DNA from: Lentzea fradiae
GTDB taxonomy: Bacteria > Actinomycetota > Actinomycetes > Mycobacteriales > Pseudonocardiaceae
Assembly (NCBI RefSeq): GCF_900100955.1
Contig: NZ_FNCC01000001.1
Location: forward strand, 558,001 to 622,000
Direction of reading: 5' to 3'
DNA length: 64,000 bases
Within the stretch, counting starts at the first letter, position 1, and each line of letters starts with the position of its first letter. The notes beneath the pieces are model-generated. The model saw only the letters and a list, made by a program, of their open reading frames with translations, was not told the origin of the DNA and searched no databases. Positions 43,202 to 49,120 of the stretch are shown piece by piece. A program made the position numbers and the translations under genes.

Positions 43202-43380
43202 GCGGCGGCACAGTACCTCCCGGCCCGGGACCCGTTCGGGCGACCCCTTCCGGCGATACCGCCCATCGGTTTTTTCGCGCACCATTCGGAGCAATCGAAT
43301 TTTGGAGCGCCGTTGGAGATTTCTTGGAATGGGCGGGCAGACTCCTCGATGTCAGTTGAACAGCGGAGGGAGGAACTCTC

Positions 43381-43482
43381 ATGAAGCCCCAGGCGAAGAT
43401 GAAGCGCATCACGATTCGCAAGGTGGGTCCGGTCCGCCTCACGGCGGCCGCCTGCTCGCAGTACAACGTCAAGCCGGCCTAA
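43381..43482 (+). CDS. 33-residue peptide, candidate RiPP precursor
   Basis: ATG 43381 with a strong ribosome site GGAGGGAGG eight bases before it; too short to stand out as a normal gene. The peptide begins MKPQAKMKRITIRK (basic, leader-like) and ends VRLTAAACSQYNVKPA, with a single Cys and Tyr. It is followed after ten bases by a 13-bp perfect hairpin and then by a PqqD-domain membrane protease, the classical layout of a precursor gene expressed in excess over its processing enzymes. Precursor status is inferred from layout; the peptide family was not recognised. Confidence 0.75.
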   Translation: MKPQAKMKRITIRKVGPVRLTAAACSQYNVKPA

Positions 43483-43492
43483 GGCGCGACGC

Positions 43493-43524
43493 GGACGCGC
43501 CGGGCCACCGCGCCCGGCGCGTCC
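43493..43524 (+). terminator. Attenuator hairpin behind the peptide gene
   Basis: GGACGCGCCGGGC and GCCCGGCGCGTCC form a perfect 13-bp stem with a 6-nt loop between the peptide stop and the protease gene. No U-tract. Expected to stop most transcripts after the peptide and let some read through. Confidence 0.75.
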
Positions 43525-43550
43525 GACCTGACACCAGGGGAGGAGACGGC

Positions 43551-44759
43551 GTGACCGAGATCGACCTCGACCGGCCGGTGCCGCTGCACCCGCTGGTGTT
43601 CCTGGAGGACGGCGACGAGGTGACGATCGGCCGTCCCGACATCGACTCGTACGGCATGTTCCCCGGTGAGGGCGCCGCGCTCGTGCGCAGGCTGGTCGAA
43701 GGCGACACCCCGCGCGAGGCCGCGGCGTGGTTCGAGCGCGAGTACGGCGAGGAGGTCGACATCGAGGACGTCCTCGCGGGCCTCGACGAGCTCGACCTGG
43801 TGCGCAGGACGGGGGAGGAGATCGTCGCCACCACCGCTCCCGTGCGGTTCGGGCGGCTCGGCGCCGCGTTGTTCTCGCCCTTCGCGTGGGCCGCCTACGC
43901 CGTTCTGGCGGGGTGGGCGTTGTTCGTGATGGTGGCGAACGCGGATTTGCGGCCGACCTACCACAACATTTTCTTCTCCGATTACTACATGGTCATCCAG
44001 GTCGGGCTGTTCCTGGCCGCCATTCCCCTTCTTTTTCTGCACGAGTCGTTCCACGCGCTCGCGGGACGAAGGCTCGGCGTCCGGTCGCGGTTGCGGATCG
44101 GCAGACGCCTCTACTTCATCGTCCTGGAGACGTCGCTCGACGGTCTCGTGGCCGTGCCACGCGCGAAGCGGTACCTGCCGATCGTCGCGGGGCTGCTGGC
44201 CGACGTCCTCGGCATCGCCGCGTGCACCGTCGCCGCCGACCTGACGCGCCACCCGGACGGCTCGCTGTCGGGTGCCGGGAGGTTCCTGCTGGCCGTGGCG
44301 TTCGCCGCGCTGCTGCGGGTCATCTGGCAGTTCTTCCTCTACCTGCGCACGGACGTCTACGTCCTCGTCAGCACGGTGCTGGGCTGCGTCGACCTGCACG
44401 GGGCCGCGATGCGGATCGTGAAGAACAGGTTCCGGCGGCTGGCCGGCAAGCCGGAGGAGGACGAGTCGGTGCTGCACCCGGTCGACCGGCAGGTGGCGCG
44501 CTGGTACTCGTGGCTCGTCGTCGTCGGGTACACCGCGAGCCTCACGACGTTCGCGCTCGCGGGTGCCCCGGTGCTCTACCGGTTCGTCACCGGTGTCCTC
44601 GGGCGGCTCACGGGTGACGGCGTGCCGACGGCCCAGCTGCTCGACTCGATCGTCTTCGGCGGTGTCGCGCTCGCGCAAGGCGCCGTGCTCGGCTGGCTGA
44701 TGGTCAGGGAACGCGTGCGGGCGCGCCGCGACCGTCGCCTGCACCACGTCATTCACTGA
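43551..44759 (+). CDS. PqqD-like domain + M50 (site-2-type) membrane metalloprotease
   Basis: 402 residues from GTG 43551 (GGGGAGGAG upstream). Residues 1-95 form a PqqD/RRE-like domain (HPLVFLEDGDEVTIGRPDI, GEGAALVRRLVEGDTPREAAAWF, VLAGLDELDLV) that in peptide pathways binds precursor leaders. The rest has about six membrane helices with HESFHAL (zinc HExxH, residues 163-167) and LLADVLG as the probable third-ligand helix. This resembles YydH-type S2P proteases of RiPP clusters. It probably cleaves the peptide encoded upstream within or at the membrane. Thirteen bases separate it from the TPR gene. Confidence 0.85.
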   Translation: MTEIDLDRPVPLHPLVFLEDGDEVTIGRPDIDSYGMFPGEGAALVRRLVEGDTPREAAAWFEREYGEEVDIEDVLAGLDELDLVRRTGEEIVATTAPVRFGRLGAALFSPFAWAAYAVLAGWALFVMVANADLRPTYHNIFFSDYYMVIQVGLFLAAIPLLFLHESFHALAGRRLGVRSRLRIGRRLYFIVLETSLDGLVAVPRAKRYLPIVAGLLADVLGIAACTVAADLTRHPDGSLSGAGRFLLAVAFAALLRVIWQFFLYLRTDVYVLVSTVLGCVDLHGAAMRIVKNRFRRLAGKPEEDESVLHPVDRQVARWYSWLVVVGYTASLTTFALAGAPVLYRFVTGVLGRLTGDGVPTAQLLDSIVFGGVALAQGAVLGWLMVRERVRARRDRRLHHVIH

Positions 44760-44772
44760 AAGGACGCACCCC

Positions 44773-46857
44773 ATGGACAGCCGCTACTGGATCCGCGCCG
44801 ACCGGCGGCGCGACCGGGCCCACGCCCTCGCCGCACTGGACCTGCCGCCGGTCTGGGCGGTCCTCGACGCCCACCGGCGGCTGCGCGGACCGTACACGGC
44901 TGCCGGGACGCTGCTCCGGCAGATCGCCGACGACCTGCTGCGGCGGTGCCCCGAGCTGGGGGAGCGGCACAACATCGAGCTGCTGACCAGCACGCCGGAG
45001 CTGGCGGGCCGGGTGCCGAGCGCCTGGCACACGCTGGAGTGGGCGGTGCAGGACAACGAGCGCACCCGCTACTACTCCCGCCTGCACACCCGCAACATCG
45101 CCAACGGCCTGGCCGAGCTGCTGCGCGACTACCTGGCCGCCCTCGGCGGTGGGCCGCGCACGCTCGTGTTCGAGAACGCCCACGAGGCCGACCCGTCCGA
45201 CCAGGAGCTCATCGCCGTGCTGCTGCGCCGCGGCGACCTCCCCGGCCTCTGCGTCGTCGTGGGCACGAGCCGGGAGCCGCTCGTGGACCCGCGTGGCGAG
45301 ATCGACGTGTCGCTGGCGGCGACGATCGCCGCGTGCGCCGAGGTCGTCGAGGCGCAGGCAGGCGAGGACGAGCCGCTGCCGGAGAACCCCGCCCAGACCT
45401 ATGTGGACAGTGACGGCACGGCGGACGACCCGCGGCTGCTCGCCGCCTACCTCGACCTGCCCGCCGAGGCCCGTGCGGCACTGCACGACGCGAGGGCCGA
45501 GCTGCTCTCGGCCGAGGACGGGTTCTCGTTGCGCCTCGGCGCCATCCCGTACCACCTGGAGCACGGCAGCGACCCGGCGGGAGCGGGCGCGCAGGCGCTG
45601 CGGGTCGCGCTGGACCACTGCCACAAGGTCGGGCTCTACCAGGGCGCCGCGGAGCACGGCCTGCGCGGCCGGGCGGTGGCGGACCGCGAGGCCGACCCGG
45701 ACCTGTGGTGGCACCTCACCTTCCAGACCGGCATCGTGCTGGCCGCCGTCGGCCGTGCCGCCGAGGCCGACGCGCTGTACCTGGAGGGGCGCTCGGCCTC
45801 GACCGACCCGGCCGTCCAGCTGGAGCTCGCGTACTCGACGGCCATGCTGCACGCCCGGCACTACCCGGAGGCCGAACGCGACTACGTCCGTGCGAGGGCG
45901 TGGATGAACCTCGCCATCGCCATCGCGTCGCAGCTCGACGACCCGAAGAAGGAAGCGTTCCAGTCGGTCTTCACCCGCAACGGCCTCGCGCTGGTCGAGG
46001 TGCGGGAACGGAAGCCGGAGGTGGCGCTCGCCCTGGTGAACGAGGGGATGGAGCGGCTCGACCGCGAGCTCGACGCGGACGAGCACCGGCTGCACCGCCT
46101 GGTGCTGCGCTACAACCGGGCGCAGGTCTACGGCGCGATGGGCCGCCTGGACGAGGCGCTCGCCGACTACAGCTACGTCCTCGAACGCGACCCGAACTTC
46201 CCCGAGCACCACTTCAACGTCGGCAACGTGCTGCGCCGGCTCGGCCGCGTCGAGGAGGCGATCGAGGCGTACCAGGAGGCGCTGCGCCTCTCCCCGCCGT
46301 TCCCCGAGGCGTACTACAACATCGGAGACTCCCGGCTCGCGCTCGGCGACGTCGAGGGCGCGATGGCGGACTTCGGCTACGTCATCGAGCTGGACCCGAA
46401 GCACGTGGACGCCAGGATCAACCGCGCGGGCCACCTGCTGGACCAGGGCGACGCCGAGGGCGCGTGGCGCGACGTCTCCGCCGCGCTCGAGGTCGCGCCG
46501 GACAACGCGCACCTGTTGTGCCTCAAGGGCCAGCTGCTCGCCGAGAAGGACGAGTACGCGGCGGCGTCCGAGGCGCTGGAGGAAGCGGTGCGGCGCAACG
46601 ACGGGTTGGCCGAGGCGTGGGCGATCCGCGGCACGATCGCGGTGGCCTCCGGCGAGCTGAACGCCGCGATCAACTACCTGAGCAGGGCGATCACGCTCGA
46701 CGACAACCCGGAGGTCCGCTACAACCGCGCGATCGCCTACGAGGAGTCCGGTGAGCTGGCCGCGGCGATCCTCGACTACGACGCGGTCCTCGCGGTGAGC
46801 GACGACGAGGACGCGAGGCAGCGCAGGGAACTCTGCGCCGCGGCGGCAGTGAGCTAG
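44773..46857 (+). CDS. TPR protein with degenerate STAND-like N-terminus
   Basis: 694 residues, ATG after AAAGGACGC. Residues 1-230 resemble the first half of a STAND/AAA ATPase. They keep a Walker-B-like TLVFENAHEADPSDQELIAVLLRR and VVVGTSREPL, but the region where Walker A should be reads RRLRGPYTAAGTLLRQ, with no GK[ST]. From about 290 to 690 come eight or more TPR units (for example AQVYGAMGRLDEALADYSYV, NVLRRLGRVEEAIEAYQEAL). It is probably a scaffold or regulator of the peptide pathway; loss of ATP binding is visible, its role is inferred. Ten bases separate it from the flavin reductase. Confidence 0.8.
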   Translation: MDSRYWIRADRRRDRAHALAALDLPPVWAVLDAHRRLRGPYTAAGTLLRQIADDLLRRCPELGERHNIELLTSTPELAGRVPSAWHTLEWAVQDNERTRYYSRLHTRNIANGLAELLRDYLAALGGGPRTLVFENAHEADPSDQELIAVLLRRGDLPGLCVVVGTSREPLVDPRGEIDVSLAATIAACAEVVEAQAGEDEPLPENPAQTYVDSDGTADDPRLLAAYLDLPAEARAALHDARAELLSAEDGFSLRLGAIPYHLEHGSDPAGAGAQALRVALDHCHKVGLYQGAAEHGLRGRAVADREADPDLWWHLTFQTGIVLAAVGRAAEADALYLEGRSASTDPAVQLELAYSTAMLHARHYPEAERDYVRARAWMNLAIAIASQLDDPKKEAFQSVFTRNGLALVEVRERKPEVALALVNEGMERLDRELDADEHRLHRLVLRYNRAQVYGAMGRLDEALADYSYVLERDPNFPEHHFNVGNVLRRLGRVEEAIEAYQEALRLSPPFPEAYYNIGDSRLALGDVEGAMADFGYVIELDPKHVDARINRAGHLLDQGDAEGAWRDVSAALEVAPDNAHLLCLKGQLLAEKDEYAAASEALEEAVRRNDGLAEAWAIRGTIAVASGELNAAINYLSRAITLDDNPEVRYNRAIAYEESGELAAAILDYDAVLAVSDDEDARQRRELCAAAAVS

Positions 46858-46867
46858 GGGAGACGCC

Positions 46868-47386
46868 GTGACCGCAACGGAGGACGTGGCCGCCGGACTT
46901 GCGGTGGCCACGTTCACCGACGCCATGAGCAGGCTCGTCTCCGGCCTCGCCGTCGTCACCACCCGGCAGGACAACGGCACGCCGTGCGGGCTGCTCGTCT
47001 CCTCGATCTGCTCCTACAGCGTGAACCCGCCGTCCGTGCTGGTCGTCGTCGACCACGCGTCACGGTGCCACGAACCGTTGAGGCGCAGCACGGAGTTCGG
47101 CGTGCACCTGCTCGGCATCGCACAGGAACGCACCGCGCGGACCTTCGCGAGCAGAGGAGCCGACAAGTTCGCCGACGTGGCCTGGGAGTGGGACGGCTCC
47201 GTGCCGCGGTTGTGCCCGGCGCCCATCTACCTGCGGTGCACCACCACCGCGCTGTTCGGGCACGGCGACCACACCGTGCTGATCGGTGAGGTGACGCGCA
47301 CCGAGGTGGAGGACGCCGAGCCGCTCGTCTTCTACCGCCGCCTGCTCGACTGGCGGCTACGGGGAACCGGTGCCCGCCGGCGGTAG
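46868..47386 (+). CDS. Flavin reductase-like (FMN-binding split-barrel) protein
   Basis: 172 residues from GTG 46868 (AGGGGAGA upstream). The split-barrel pattern is complete: RLVSGLAVVTTRQDNGTPCGLLVSSICSYSVNPPSVLVVV, FGVHLLGIAQERTARTFA, and GDHTVLIGEVTRTEVED. In the family it reduces free flavin for a partner monooxygenase or binds FMN to oxidise a substrate directly. No separate monooxygenase is present, so either it acts alone on the peptide or supports an unlinked enzyme. Its 3' end overlaps the convergent SARP gene by 30 nt. Confidence 0.85.
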   Translation: MTATEDVAAGLAVATFTDAMSRLVSGLAVVTTRQDNGTPCGLLVSSICSYSVNPPSVLVVVDHASRCHEPLRRSTEFGVHLLGIAQERTARTFASRGADKFADVAWEWDGSVPRLCPAPIYLRCTTTALFGHGDHTVLIGEVTRTEVEDAEPLVFYRRLLDWRLRGTGARRR

Positions 47387-48205
47387 CCCGGAGAGCGCCC
47401 GTTCGTGCCGGTGCGCCCGGTCGAACGGGTCCTCGCCGTTGAGGATCAGCTGGTGCAGCGCCTTGAGTCGCGGCCCCGGCTCGATGCCCGCCTGGTTGGA
47501 CAGCAACCGGTAGGCCCTGGCGTAGGCCGTCAAGGCGTCCGCGCGCCGTTCCGCCTGGCACAGCGCCAGCATCAGCTGCTCGTGGAACCTCTCCCAGCAC
47601 GGGTAGGTCTGGCATAGCTCTTCCAGGTCGAACACGGCCAGGTGCCCGTCACCGGCGCACAGCATCACGTCGAACCGGTTGCGCAGCAGCTCCAGGTACT
47701 CCTTCTCCAGCCGGGTGACGTCGTGGTCGAACATCCCCGTGTCGTTGAGGTCCGCCAGCGGCGACCCCCGCCACAGGCACAGGGCGGTCGTGAACTTCTC
47801 CCTCGCGGTCCGGCAGTCACCCGCGGCCATCGCCACCTGGCCCTGCCTCGACAGCTCCCGGAACCGCGTCAGGTCGAGCTGGTGCGGCTCCAGGCGGAGC
47901 ACGTAGCCGGAGGGACGCGTGCTCAGCACGGGGTGCGAGGCCCGTGACCGGCCCCAGCCGGGCGTGAGCACCCGCCGCACGGCCGTGACGTACCCGTGCA
48001 GGGCCGCGACCGCTGACCGGGGAGCGTCACGGGACCAGAGCTGGTCCACGATGCGACTGGTCGGAACGAACTCGTTGGCGTGCAACGCGAGCAGTGCCAG
48101 CAGCGCCCGTTGCTTGGGCGCTGACGGTGTGCAGCGCCGGGCGCCTCTTGTGACTTCGAACGTGCCCAGGACCCGGAAGTGCGGCGGTTCATCTTCCGTT
48201 GCCAC
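47357..48205 (-). CDS. SARP-family (AfsR/BTAD) pathway regulator
   Basis: 282 residues from GTG 48205 with GGAGGTGAG upstream. N-terminal OmpR-type winged helix (FRVLGTFEVTR, PKQRALLALLALHANEFVPTSRIVDQLW, LHGYVTAVRRVL, GYVLRLEPHQLDLTRFREL) followed by a BTAD domain of helices (LEKEYLELLRNRFDVML, WERFHEQLMLALCQAERRADALTAYARAYRLL). It is the typical small SARP of secondary-metabolite clusters, and lies convergent with the peptide operon. It is the best candidate activator of that operon. Confidence 0.92.
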   Translation of the reverse strand: MATEDEPPHFRVLGTFEVTRGARRCTPSAPKQRALLALLALHANEFVPTSRIVDQLWSRDAPRSAVAALHGYVTAVRRVLTPGWGRSRASHPVLSTRPSGYVLRLEPHQLDLTRFRELSRQGQVAMAAGDCRTAREKFTTALCLWRGSPLADLNDTGMFDHDVTRLEKEYLELLRNRFDVMLCAGDGHLAVFDLEELCQTYPCWERFHEQLMLALCQAERRADALTAYARAYRLLSNQAGIEPGPRLKALHQLILNGEDPFDRAHRHERALSGLPPAGTGSP

Positions 48206-48613: not shown

Positions 48614-49120
48614 ATGTTCCGGAAACTGGCGGCATCACTGGCGACGGCACTGGTCGCCGCGGCATCCGTCGCGCTACCCGCCGCGCCCGCACAGGCGGAG
48701 CCGGTCCGTGCCGGCACCGGAGACGGCCCTGTCGTCTTCACCAGGTCCACCGGCCTGGGCATGCAGGACGTGATCACCTGCACCGGCACCTCGGACAACC
48801 CGCACAACTCCTCCGGCACCCCGAGCGCCGTCACGGGCAAGTCGCGCAGCTCCTGCACGGCACCCGTCGCCGAGATCCGCGCCCAGGCGGAGCTGTGGCG
48901 CTACCTGGAGGGCTACGGCTTCGTCCAGACGGCCATCGGCTCGCTCGCCGCCGCCCCCAACTCCGCGGGCCCCATGCCGTCCACCGCCTTCGACATCTGC
49001 CAGGGGCGCCTCGCCTACTGGGTGACAGTCGGACGCCACACCTTCTACGCGCCACCCGGCTACTCGCCGCCCAAGATCACGCTCGTGACCGAGACGCCCC
49101 CTGTCGGCGTGAACTGCTAG
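48614..49120 (+). CDS. Secreted hypothetical protein
   Basis: 168 residues from ATG 48614 (TTTGGAGGTG upstream). Signal peptide MFRKLAASLATALVAAASVALPAAPAQA, cut after AQA. The mature part has four Cys (ITCTG, SSCTAP, DICQG, GVNC), likely two disulfides, and WRYLEGYGFVQTAIGSL with a C-terminal YWVTVGRHTFYAPPG. No known family. The TAG stop lies within the first bases of repeat copy B. Confidence 0.75.
   Translation: MFRKLAASLATALVAAASVALPAAPAQAEPVRAGTGDGPVVFTRSTGLGMQDVITCTGTSDNPHNSSGTPSAVTGKSRSSCTAPVAEIRAQAELWRYLEGYGFVQTAIGSLAAAPNSAGPMPSTAFDICQGRLAYWVTVGRHTFYAPPGYSPPKITLVTETPPVGVNC

Follow-up and report, generated by a model that had tools for sequence, protein, structure and literature searches.

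A small locus at positions 43300–48205 of a 64-kb stretch of Lentzea fradiae DNA (the window, i.e. the whole stretch studied, from a home genome of 8.5 Mb) begins with an open reading frame of 33 amino acids (aa). This is followed by genes for a predicted membrane protease of the M50 type, a tetratricopeptide repeat (TPR) protein and a flavin reductase. A regulatory gene of the SARP (Streptomyces antibiotic regulatory protein) family lies convergent. The N-terminal part of the M50 protein resembles a recognition element (RRE) of ribosomally synthesized and post-translationally modified peptides (RiPPs). The peptide, RRE-M50 and TPR genes together are termed the trio, and are considered here as a candidate RiPP-type peptide maturation system; homologous neighbourhoods in other genomes are labelled L0xx–L1xx. 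The features of the locus are as follows.

43300–43328 (+): putative SARP-type operator, heptamers TTTTGGA, CGTTGGA and TCTTGGA with an exact 11-bp period; kept in nine aligned Lentzea sequences
43338–43343 (+): −10-like element CAGACT (presumed role), 9 nt past the last repeat; conserved in the Lentzea upstream alignment
43365–43373 (+): ribosome-binding site GGAGGGAGG, from sequence
43381–43482 (+): precursor peptide gene, 33 aa, MKPQAKMKRITIRKVGPVRLTAAACSQYNVKPA; homologous peptide at each of the 33 trio loci, with synonymous codon change
43408–43443 (+): leader motif ITIRKVGPVRLT within the peptide gene
43444–43479 (+): variable tail AAACSQYNVKPA within the peptide gene
43493–43524 (+): RNA hairpin, perfect 13-bp stem, 43493–43505 pairing with 43512–43524; compensatory changes
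43551–44759 (+): gene for the RRE (PqqD-like)-M50 site-2-type protease, 402 aa, GTG start; invariant residues, AlphaFold and Foldseek
43578–43805 (+): RRE part of the M50 protein, about residues 10–85; predicted fold
44040–44054 (+): HESFH of the M50 protein, residues 164–168; D218 is the candidate third ligand
44773–46857 (+): TPR protein gene, 694 aa, STAND-like N-terminal part without a P-loop; Pfam TPR and structure model
46868–47386 (+): flavin reductase gene (PF01613, E = 8e-31), accessory; Pfam
47357–48205 (−): SARP-family regulator gene (Trans_reg_C and BTAD, BTAD E = 3e-36), convergent; Pfam

The intergenic gaps are 13 nt between the M50 and TPR genes and 10 nt between the TPR and flavin reductase genes, and the SARP and flavin reductase genes overlap tail to tail by 30 nt. 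An earlier interpretation made from the letters alone (the sequence-only reading) had pointed to a short peptide gene with a good ribosome site, a perfect 13-bp hairpin, a tight operon and a convergent pathway-type SARP, and all of these are found at the positions listed.

The peptide, the protease and the TPR protein

Upstream DNA of M50 homologues was read in nine Lentzea loci (L036–L044), 17 loci of the same family (L045–L061, some of them from Lentzea as well), six loci from three more families (L094–L099) and one Streptomyces plasmid (L065). A matching short open reading frame is present upstream of the protease in all 33 of these M50-TPR loci besides the window. A profile hidden Markov model (HMM) gives E-values of 1e-16 to 1e-8 for 32 of them and a weaker match for the plasmid copy (E = 4e-4); the model was seeded with 15 short peptides from these same loci and its E-values are therefore optimistic. 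The first homologous peptides were spotted before the HMM was used, by a plain listing of open reading frames with ribosome sites upstream of the protease. Because a matching peptide is found at 33 of 33 trio loci, its conservation goes beyond chance. The sequence-only reading had made its case depend on a conserved peptide upstream of homologous proteases and on codon conservation in related strains; the peptide is there, and among ten distinct Lentzea sequences the codon changes are mostly synonymous. Judged by this conservation, the 33-aa gene encodes a real precursor-type peptide, and the RiPP-type reading comes out of this independent check strengthened.

The peptides display a nearly invariant leader block, I-x-[VI]-R-[KR]-x-G-x-[VI]-[RK]-L-T, and a variable tail after LT (27 distinct peptides in the 33 loci and the window). 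In the window peptide the leader segment is written as MKPQAKMKRITIRKVGPVRLT. The conserved block stops at LT; the core VRLT..AC..Y proposed earlier mixes leader and tail. The DNA of the leader motif occurs once in the home genome (pattern search), and the window peptide has no match in Pfam or NCBIfam. With most start calls the trio peptides are 25–41 aa long, without a transmembrane helix.

The tails have 10–18 residues, and 23 of the 27 distinct tails contain neither Asp nor Glu. At least one Cys plus at least one Tyr is present in 26 of the 27; as the sequences are related, these do not count as 26 separate events. Only the tail of L065, on a plasmid rich in insertion sequences, departs from this. 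Cys and Tyr make up 13.5% and 8.5% of tail residues, vs. 1.3% and 3.1% in neighbouring window proteins. Cys and Tyr have no fixed order or spacing, some tails carry CC or CCC/CCCC runs, and tails differ strongly between genera. A ribosomal precursor with a conserved leader and a variable core, encoded beside processing enzymes, is the arrangement that characterizes RiPP systems, and the trio loci show it.

The window M50 protein is found with 83–91% identity in nine Lentzea genomes. It has no Pfam or NCBIfam match, but a few of its relatives weakly match PF02163 (Peptidase_M50) and PF05402 (PqqD). In the AlphaFold model (mean confidence score, pLDDT, of 84.7) the first elements are three strands plus three helices. 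The best Foldseek matches of this N-terminal part are the leader-bound lasso-peptide proteins 5v1u, 5v1v and 6jx3 (probability 0.98–1.00, target TM-score 0.66–0.71), followed by PqqD and SkfB, and the membrane part of the model matches RseP. Across 19 homologues, residues H164, E165, H168 and D218 do not vary. The HExxH motif, a third Asp ligand, hydrophobic segments and the RseP match are those of a site-2 protease (M50), whose activity is predicted. The M50 protein appears to be an N-terminal RRE fold fused to a site-2-protease-like HExxH body, in agreement with the PqqD-type, leader-binding domain on an HESFH protease read earlier from sequence. By its fold, the pathway protein contains a leader-recognition RRE domain, which probably binds the leader.

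At every trio locus the next gene after M50 is that of the TPR protein. The distances of the M50 and TPR proteins show a correlation of 0.97, as expected of co-inherited genes. The structure model (pLDDT 88.7) displays a TPR superhelix of the OGT type. Pfam gives TPR models and a weak AAA_16 region in the N-terminal part, and no helix-turn-helix or other DNA-binding domain. In 11 of 11 TPR homologues the N-terminal 250 residues lack the Walker A sequence GK[S/T] expected of a STAND NTPase. Because the P-loop is missing from all of them, the TPR protein is unlikely, by sequence, to be an ATPase; of the "STAND/TPR" label given earlier the TPR half stands and the STAND half has to be qualified.

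TPR proteins with 38%–45% identity to that of the trio also occur at L100–L113 and were considered as further members. They were rejected, as neither an M50 match nor a matching VRLT peptide lies near them. Since these relatives occur without the M50 gene elsewhere in the class, the TPR family extends beyond the peptide system.

By comparison of the loci, the invariant unit of the system is the peptide, RRE-M50 and TPR genes in constant order. The trio is found in Lentzea, other Pseudonocardiaceae, three further families and the one Streptomyces plasmid, and its distribution is patchy: RRE-M50 of the trio type is present in 13 of 24 genomes of the genus Lentzea, and strong matches (E below 1e-139) in 8 of 395 sampled genomes of the class, the window genome included.

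Regulatory elements, flavoenzymes and neighbouring genes

Direct repeats of heptamers with an 11-bp period, placed ahead of the −10 element, are the architecture of SARP operators. The three heptamers and CAGACT upstream of the peptide gene are kept across the aligned Lentzea set and look like a SARP operator, an element that the sequence-only reading had overlooked. The window thus has the sequence characters of a SARP-regulated operon, namely a SARP gene and heptamer repeats of 11-bp period upstream of a −10 element, with the operator itself being a prediction. Triple repeats of other sequence are present in L047, L059 and L094, each adjoining a SARP-type gene; at several SARP-linked loci no triple repeats stand out. 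Of the 24 non-Lentzea loci, 12 have a SARP-type gene no more than 5 kb away; the genome, with its 49 BTAD matches, would lead one to expect about 8%. In Streptomyces there is a strong link between small SARPs and biosynthetic clusters (PMC12224297).

The hairpin shows compensatory changes at 4 of its 13 pairs, with 99% of cells in the alignment paired vs. 30%–52% in slid controls, and recurs at the same place in other genera, in nearly every lineage. Scans of the region show no T-run, no alternative hairpin and no sigma-70 or T-tailed terminator match, and an Rfam search gives no match. The name "attenuator" used in the sequence-only reading is not borne out by a hairpin that lacks a T-run; partial termination or protection (stabilization) of a 3′ end fits as well.

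The flavin reductase gene comes next after the TPR gene in Lentzea; outside Lentzea this holds for 7 of 24 trio loci, and in the other 17 the gene is missing from that position. L046, with the reductase, has the tail SAACECYHVEV, and L047, without it, SAACECYHIEV. Because near-identical tails occur with and without the reductase, it does not define the pathway: it is optional, and was rejected as a core enzyme in view of its absence from many lineages and its decoupling from the tail. Of the co-occurrence expected earlier, the TPR gene follows in every trio locus but the reductase does not, and the proposal that the flavin protein is the oxidizing enzyme of the pathway is not supported.

Other flavoenzymes are found at some trio loci. 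A flavoprotein of the Old Yellow Enzyme (OYE) type (PF00724) occupies the slot after the TPR gene in four loci of another family; apart from the reductase- and OYE-bearing loci, the trio loci have neither gene in this slot. Divergent genes for MrsD/EpiD-like flavoproteins (E = 2e-21 to MrsD, PxMNxxMW motif present) lie at L054:7079–7669, L056:9440–9988 and L058:7027–7629. Peptides ending in Cys are found only at these three loci (p = 3e-4), which form one clade; in strains of the L054/L056 type the peptide end is GYCTPCC.

No transporter gene is conserved across the trio loci. Trio neighbours include other biosynthetic genes, i.e. of LanM, thiopeptide, pyrroloquinoline quinone (PQQ) and nonribosomal peptide synthetase types. 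At L052:2535–5471 a PqqD gene (NCBIfam TIGR03859), with PqqC, PqqE and PqqB genes by sequence appearance, is directly upstream of the SARP gene and the trio. At L057:10435–12790 a thiopeptide-type cluster adjoins the trio, with a Lant_dehydr_C protein and a precursor that is a weak match to the thiomuracin/GE37468 family. LanM-type synthetase genes (one Pfam-tested) and precursor-like short genes are found near the trio at L053:12446–16328, L056:13369–16869 and L058:431–3658. In the window, a 168-aa predicted secreted protein with several Cys (48614–49120) adjoins the SARP gene; nothing matches it at the related Lentzea loci. A spermidine-synthase-like gene upstream was rejected as a cluster member; its distance is variable and it is present in only 2 of 9 Lentzea loci.

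A proposed maturation pathway and its alternatives

The locus is best explained as a peptide maturation system of the RiPP type, in which an RRE recognizes a leader of a new family, the peptide is cut at the membrane and a SARP controls the operon; a probability of about 70% is given to this reading. It is supported by the conserved leader and variable tail, the RRE and site-2 protease (S2P) folds, the invariant zinc-site residues and the constant order of the trio, and also by the restriction of the EpiD/MrsD-like flavoprotein to Cys-ending peptides, the SARP repeats and enrichment, and the biosynthetic neighbours.

In the proposed pathway, the SARP would bind the TTGGA triple repeat and switch on the operon transcript. 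The peptide would be made from this transcript in large numbers and the enzymes, encoded beyond the hairpin, in smaller ones, the hairpin setting the ratio. The N-terminal RRE of the M50 protein would bind the I-x-V-R-K-x-G-x-V-R-L-T leader, and the membrane-embedded HExxH site may cut near the junction of LT and tail, freeing the Cys/Tyr tail of 10–18 residues. The TPR protein may hold or deliver the peptide; this is the weakest step. Lineage-specific add-on flavoenzymes (flavin reductase, OYE, EpiD/MrsD-like) would modify the tail, with chemistry that varies by lineage. As no transporter is conserved, the protease may be needed for release, a role that has been proposed for EpeP of the epipeptide pathway.

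Several points weigh against such a pathway. Minimal loci (e.g. L049, L050, L060) show no recognizable modifying enzyme, so that "post-translationally modified" is a presumption. The Foldseek E-values are modest (0.1 and above), and the RRE assignment therefore rests on Foldseek probability and on the agreement among several RRE structures. The Cys-ending loci represent a single clade, and in their flavoprotein a Pro aligns with the EpiD active-site His; standard oxidative decarboxylation is thus not assured there. What sequences and models give directly is a conserved precursor with conserved partners, the predicted RRE and S2P folds, operator-like repeats and a structured RNA. The system is rated as one that works like a RiPP system, strict membership needing a modified product.

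The strongest rival, itself unlikely, is a peptide pheromone system of the Rgg/SHP-Eep or RRNPP kind, in which the M50 protease matures an unmodified signal and the TPR protein is the intracellular receptor, acting directly or via the SARP. The minimal unit of short peptide, M50 protease and TPR superhelix does resemble RRNPP parts, several loci lack a modifying enzyme, and a TPR/BTAD regulator lies near half of the loci. However, the trio TPR protein has no DNA-binding domain or Rap-type output domain such as RRNPP receptors carry, neither an exporter nor an importer is conserved, and pheromone propeptides are not known to bear the RRE-type leader seen here. In addition, the Cys and Tyr of the tails and their CC/CCCC runs suit chemistry more than signalling, and some loci have EpiD/MrsD-like and OYE flavoenzymes.

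The same tails could belong to a cofactor or metal-ligand peptide and not to an antibiotic, the Cys/Tyr segment, perhaps oxidized or cross-linked, serving as a redox cofactor (like mycofactocin or PQQ) or as a metal binder with linked flavoenzymes. Cys and Tyr in 26 of 27 tails, the CCC/CCCC runs, three flavoenzyme families at trio loci and the membership of OYE in a family that also serves mycofactocin systems are in accordance with this, yet the Cys-Tyr spacing is not fixed, tail sequence differs strongly between genera, flavoenzymes are missing from many lineages and there are no linked metal-transport genes; it is considered improbable. A functionless peptide whose short reading frame, with its Cys/Tyr-rich end, forms a translation-coupled attenuator (e.g. 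Cys- or Tyr-sensing) with the conserved hairpin ahead of the operon is the least probable of all, as the leader amino acids are kept at distances of 40% identity while their codons change silently, where an attenuator would need regulatory codons only, an RRE-bearing protein is always encoded next, and neither an alternative hairpin nor a T-run is seen.

A further step beyond a RiPP-type maturation system can be put forward only tentatively: the trio may stand for a RiPP class of the Actinomycetota that is still undescribed, marked by a new leader family, an RRE-fused site-2 protease and Cys/Tyr modification aided by the TPR protein (as enzyme or scaffold), followed by lineage-specific diversification through flavoenzymes. 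Because no classic modifying enzyme marks this peptide family and neither Pfam nor NCBIfam recognizes the M50 protein, enzyme-based mining would miss it; the leader motif together with RRE-M50 and TPR provides a search key for genome mining. The near-universal Cys plus Tyr in such short tails is a concrete chemical puzzle. The fusion of an RRE with a protease of the intramembrane type would illustrate how a site-2 protease receives a soluble leader peptide, and the putative SARP operator would be a direct handle for switching the pathway on.

Comparison with known systems

The RRE-M50-TPR system is not described in the open papers searched (including RRE-Finder, a 2025 RRE survey, decRiPPter and a RiPP protease review; subscription papers and supplements were outside the search), and M50 is not mentioned in the main text of RRE-Finder or decRiPPter. 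By sequence, the trio appears to match no RiPP class in the databases and open papers searched, in line with the earlier view of a RiPP-type precursor that fits no class that could be named.

The lasso-peptide B1/B2 proteins (PDB 5v1u, 6jx3) share with the trio the RRE fold, its coupling to a leader peptidase and a conserved Thr near the leader end. The trio peptidase, however, is an M50/S2P-type membrane protein and not a transglutaminase-like C96 protease, and the leader motif differs. Neither the Asn-synthetase-like cyclase (C) nor the C96 protease (B2) is present in the window operon or in those neighbourhoods of the homologues that were read.

The epipeptide (EpeP) and pearlin (TglG, TmoG) pathways also include M50 proteases (PMC10885120); there, as proposed for the trio, a membrane M50 protease acts on a short ribosomal peptide. 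The trio differs in having no radical S-adenosylmethionine (SAM) epimerase or PEARL tRNA-ligase, and in its RRE-protease fusion and TPR partner. A radical SAM gene is absent from the window operon, with single ones in the homologous loci near L052 (PQQ) and L061 only; a PEARL/LanB-type protein is likewise absent from the operon, and the sole one seen belongs to the neighbouring thiopeptide-type cluster at L057. The TMcin leader is removed by the S2P-clan protease TmcP (DUF3267) (PMC13252029). Leader removal by an S2P-clan protease in a RiPP-type system is what is proposed for the trio too, but the TMcin precursor has a transmembrane helix and the trio peptides have none.

The flavoproteins beside the three Cys-ending members are candidate HFCD peptidyl-cysteine decarboxylases, like EpiD, MrsD and CypD: the PxMNxxMW substrate motif and the C-terminal Cys of the peptide are present, but the active-site His is replaced by Pro. 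They are restricted to one clade and absent from the window. The RRNPP and Rgg-SHP-Eep systems share a short peptide, M50 processing and a TPR protein with the trio, but the trio has an RRE-type leader, Cys/Tyr tails and a TPR protein without a DNA-binding domain.

Among the more distant relatives are homologous RRE-M50 proteins (L062–L064, L122–L137) that are paired with a ThiF adenylyltransferase or a DUF6879 protein in place of the TPR protein. RRE-M50 genes adjoin DUF6879 genes at L127:1414–3297, L128:796–2706 and L135:813–2640 (Pfam-tested for L127 only), with no matching short peptide at these three loci. RRE-M50, a ThiF adenylyltransferase and a peptide of 18–28 aa (MTIEVRKVESVKATGNDA, MTIEVRKVESVKATGFEV, MKLTIKRIENTRLTGSCHPTLVASGCDS) occur together at L063:6244–7464, L064:6765–7983 and L062:9343 (−), and are possibly a second undescribed RiPP-type system. 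The 18-aa peptide of L063 and L064, TIEVRKVESVKAT, displays a leader pattern similar to that of the trio with a tail of 3–5 residues; it reads MTIEVRKVESVKATG followed by NDA or FEV. Because these peptides carry a similar leader pattern, a wider leader superfamily that extends beyond the trio is likely.

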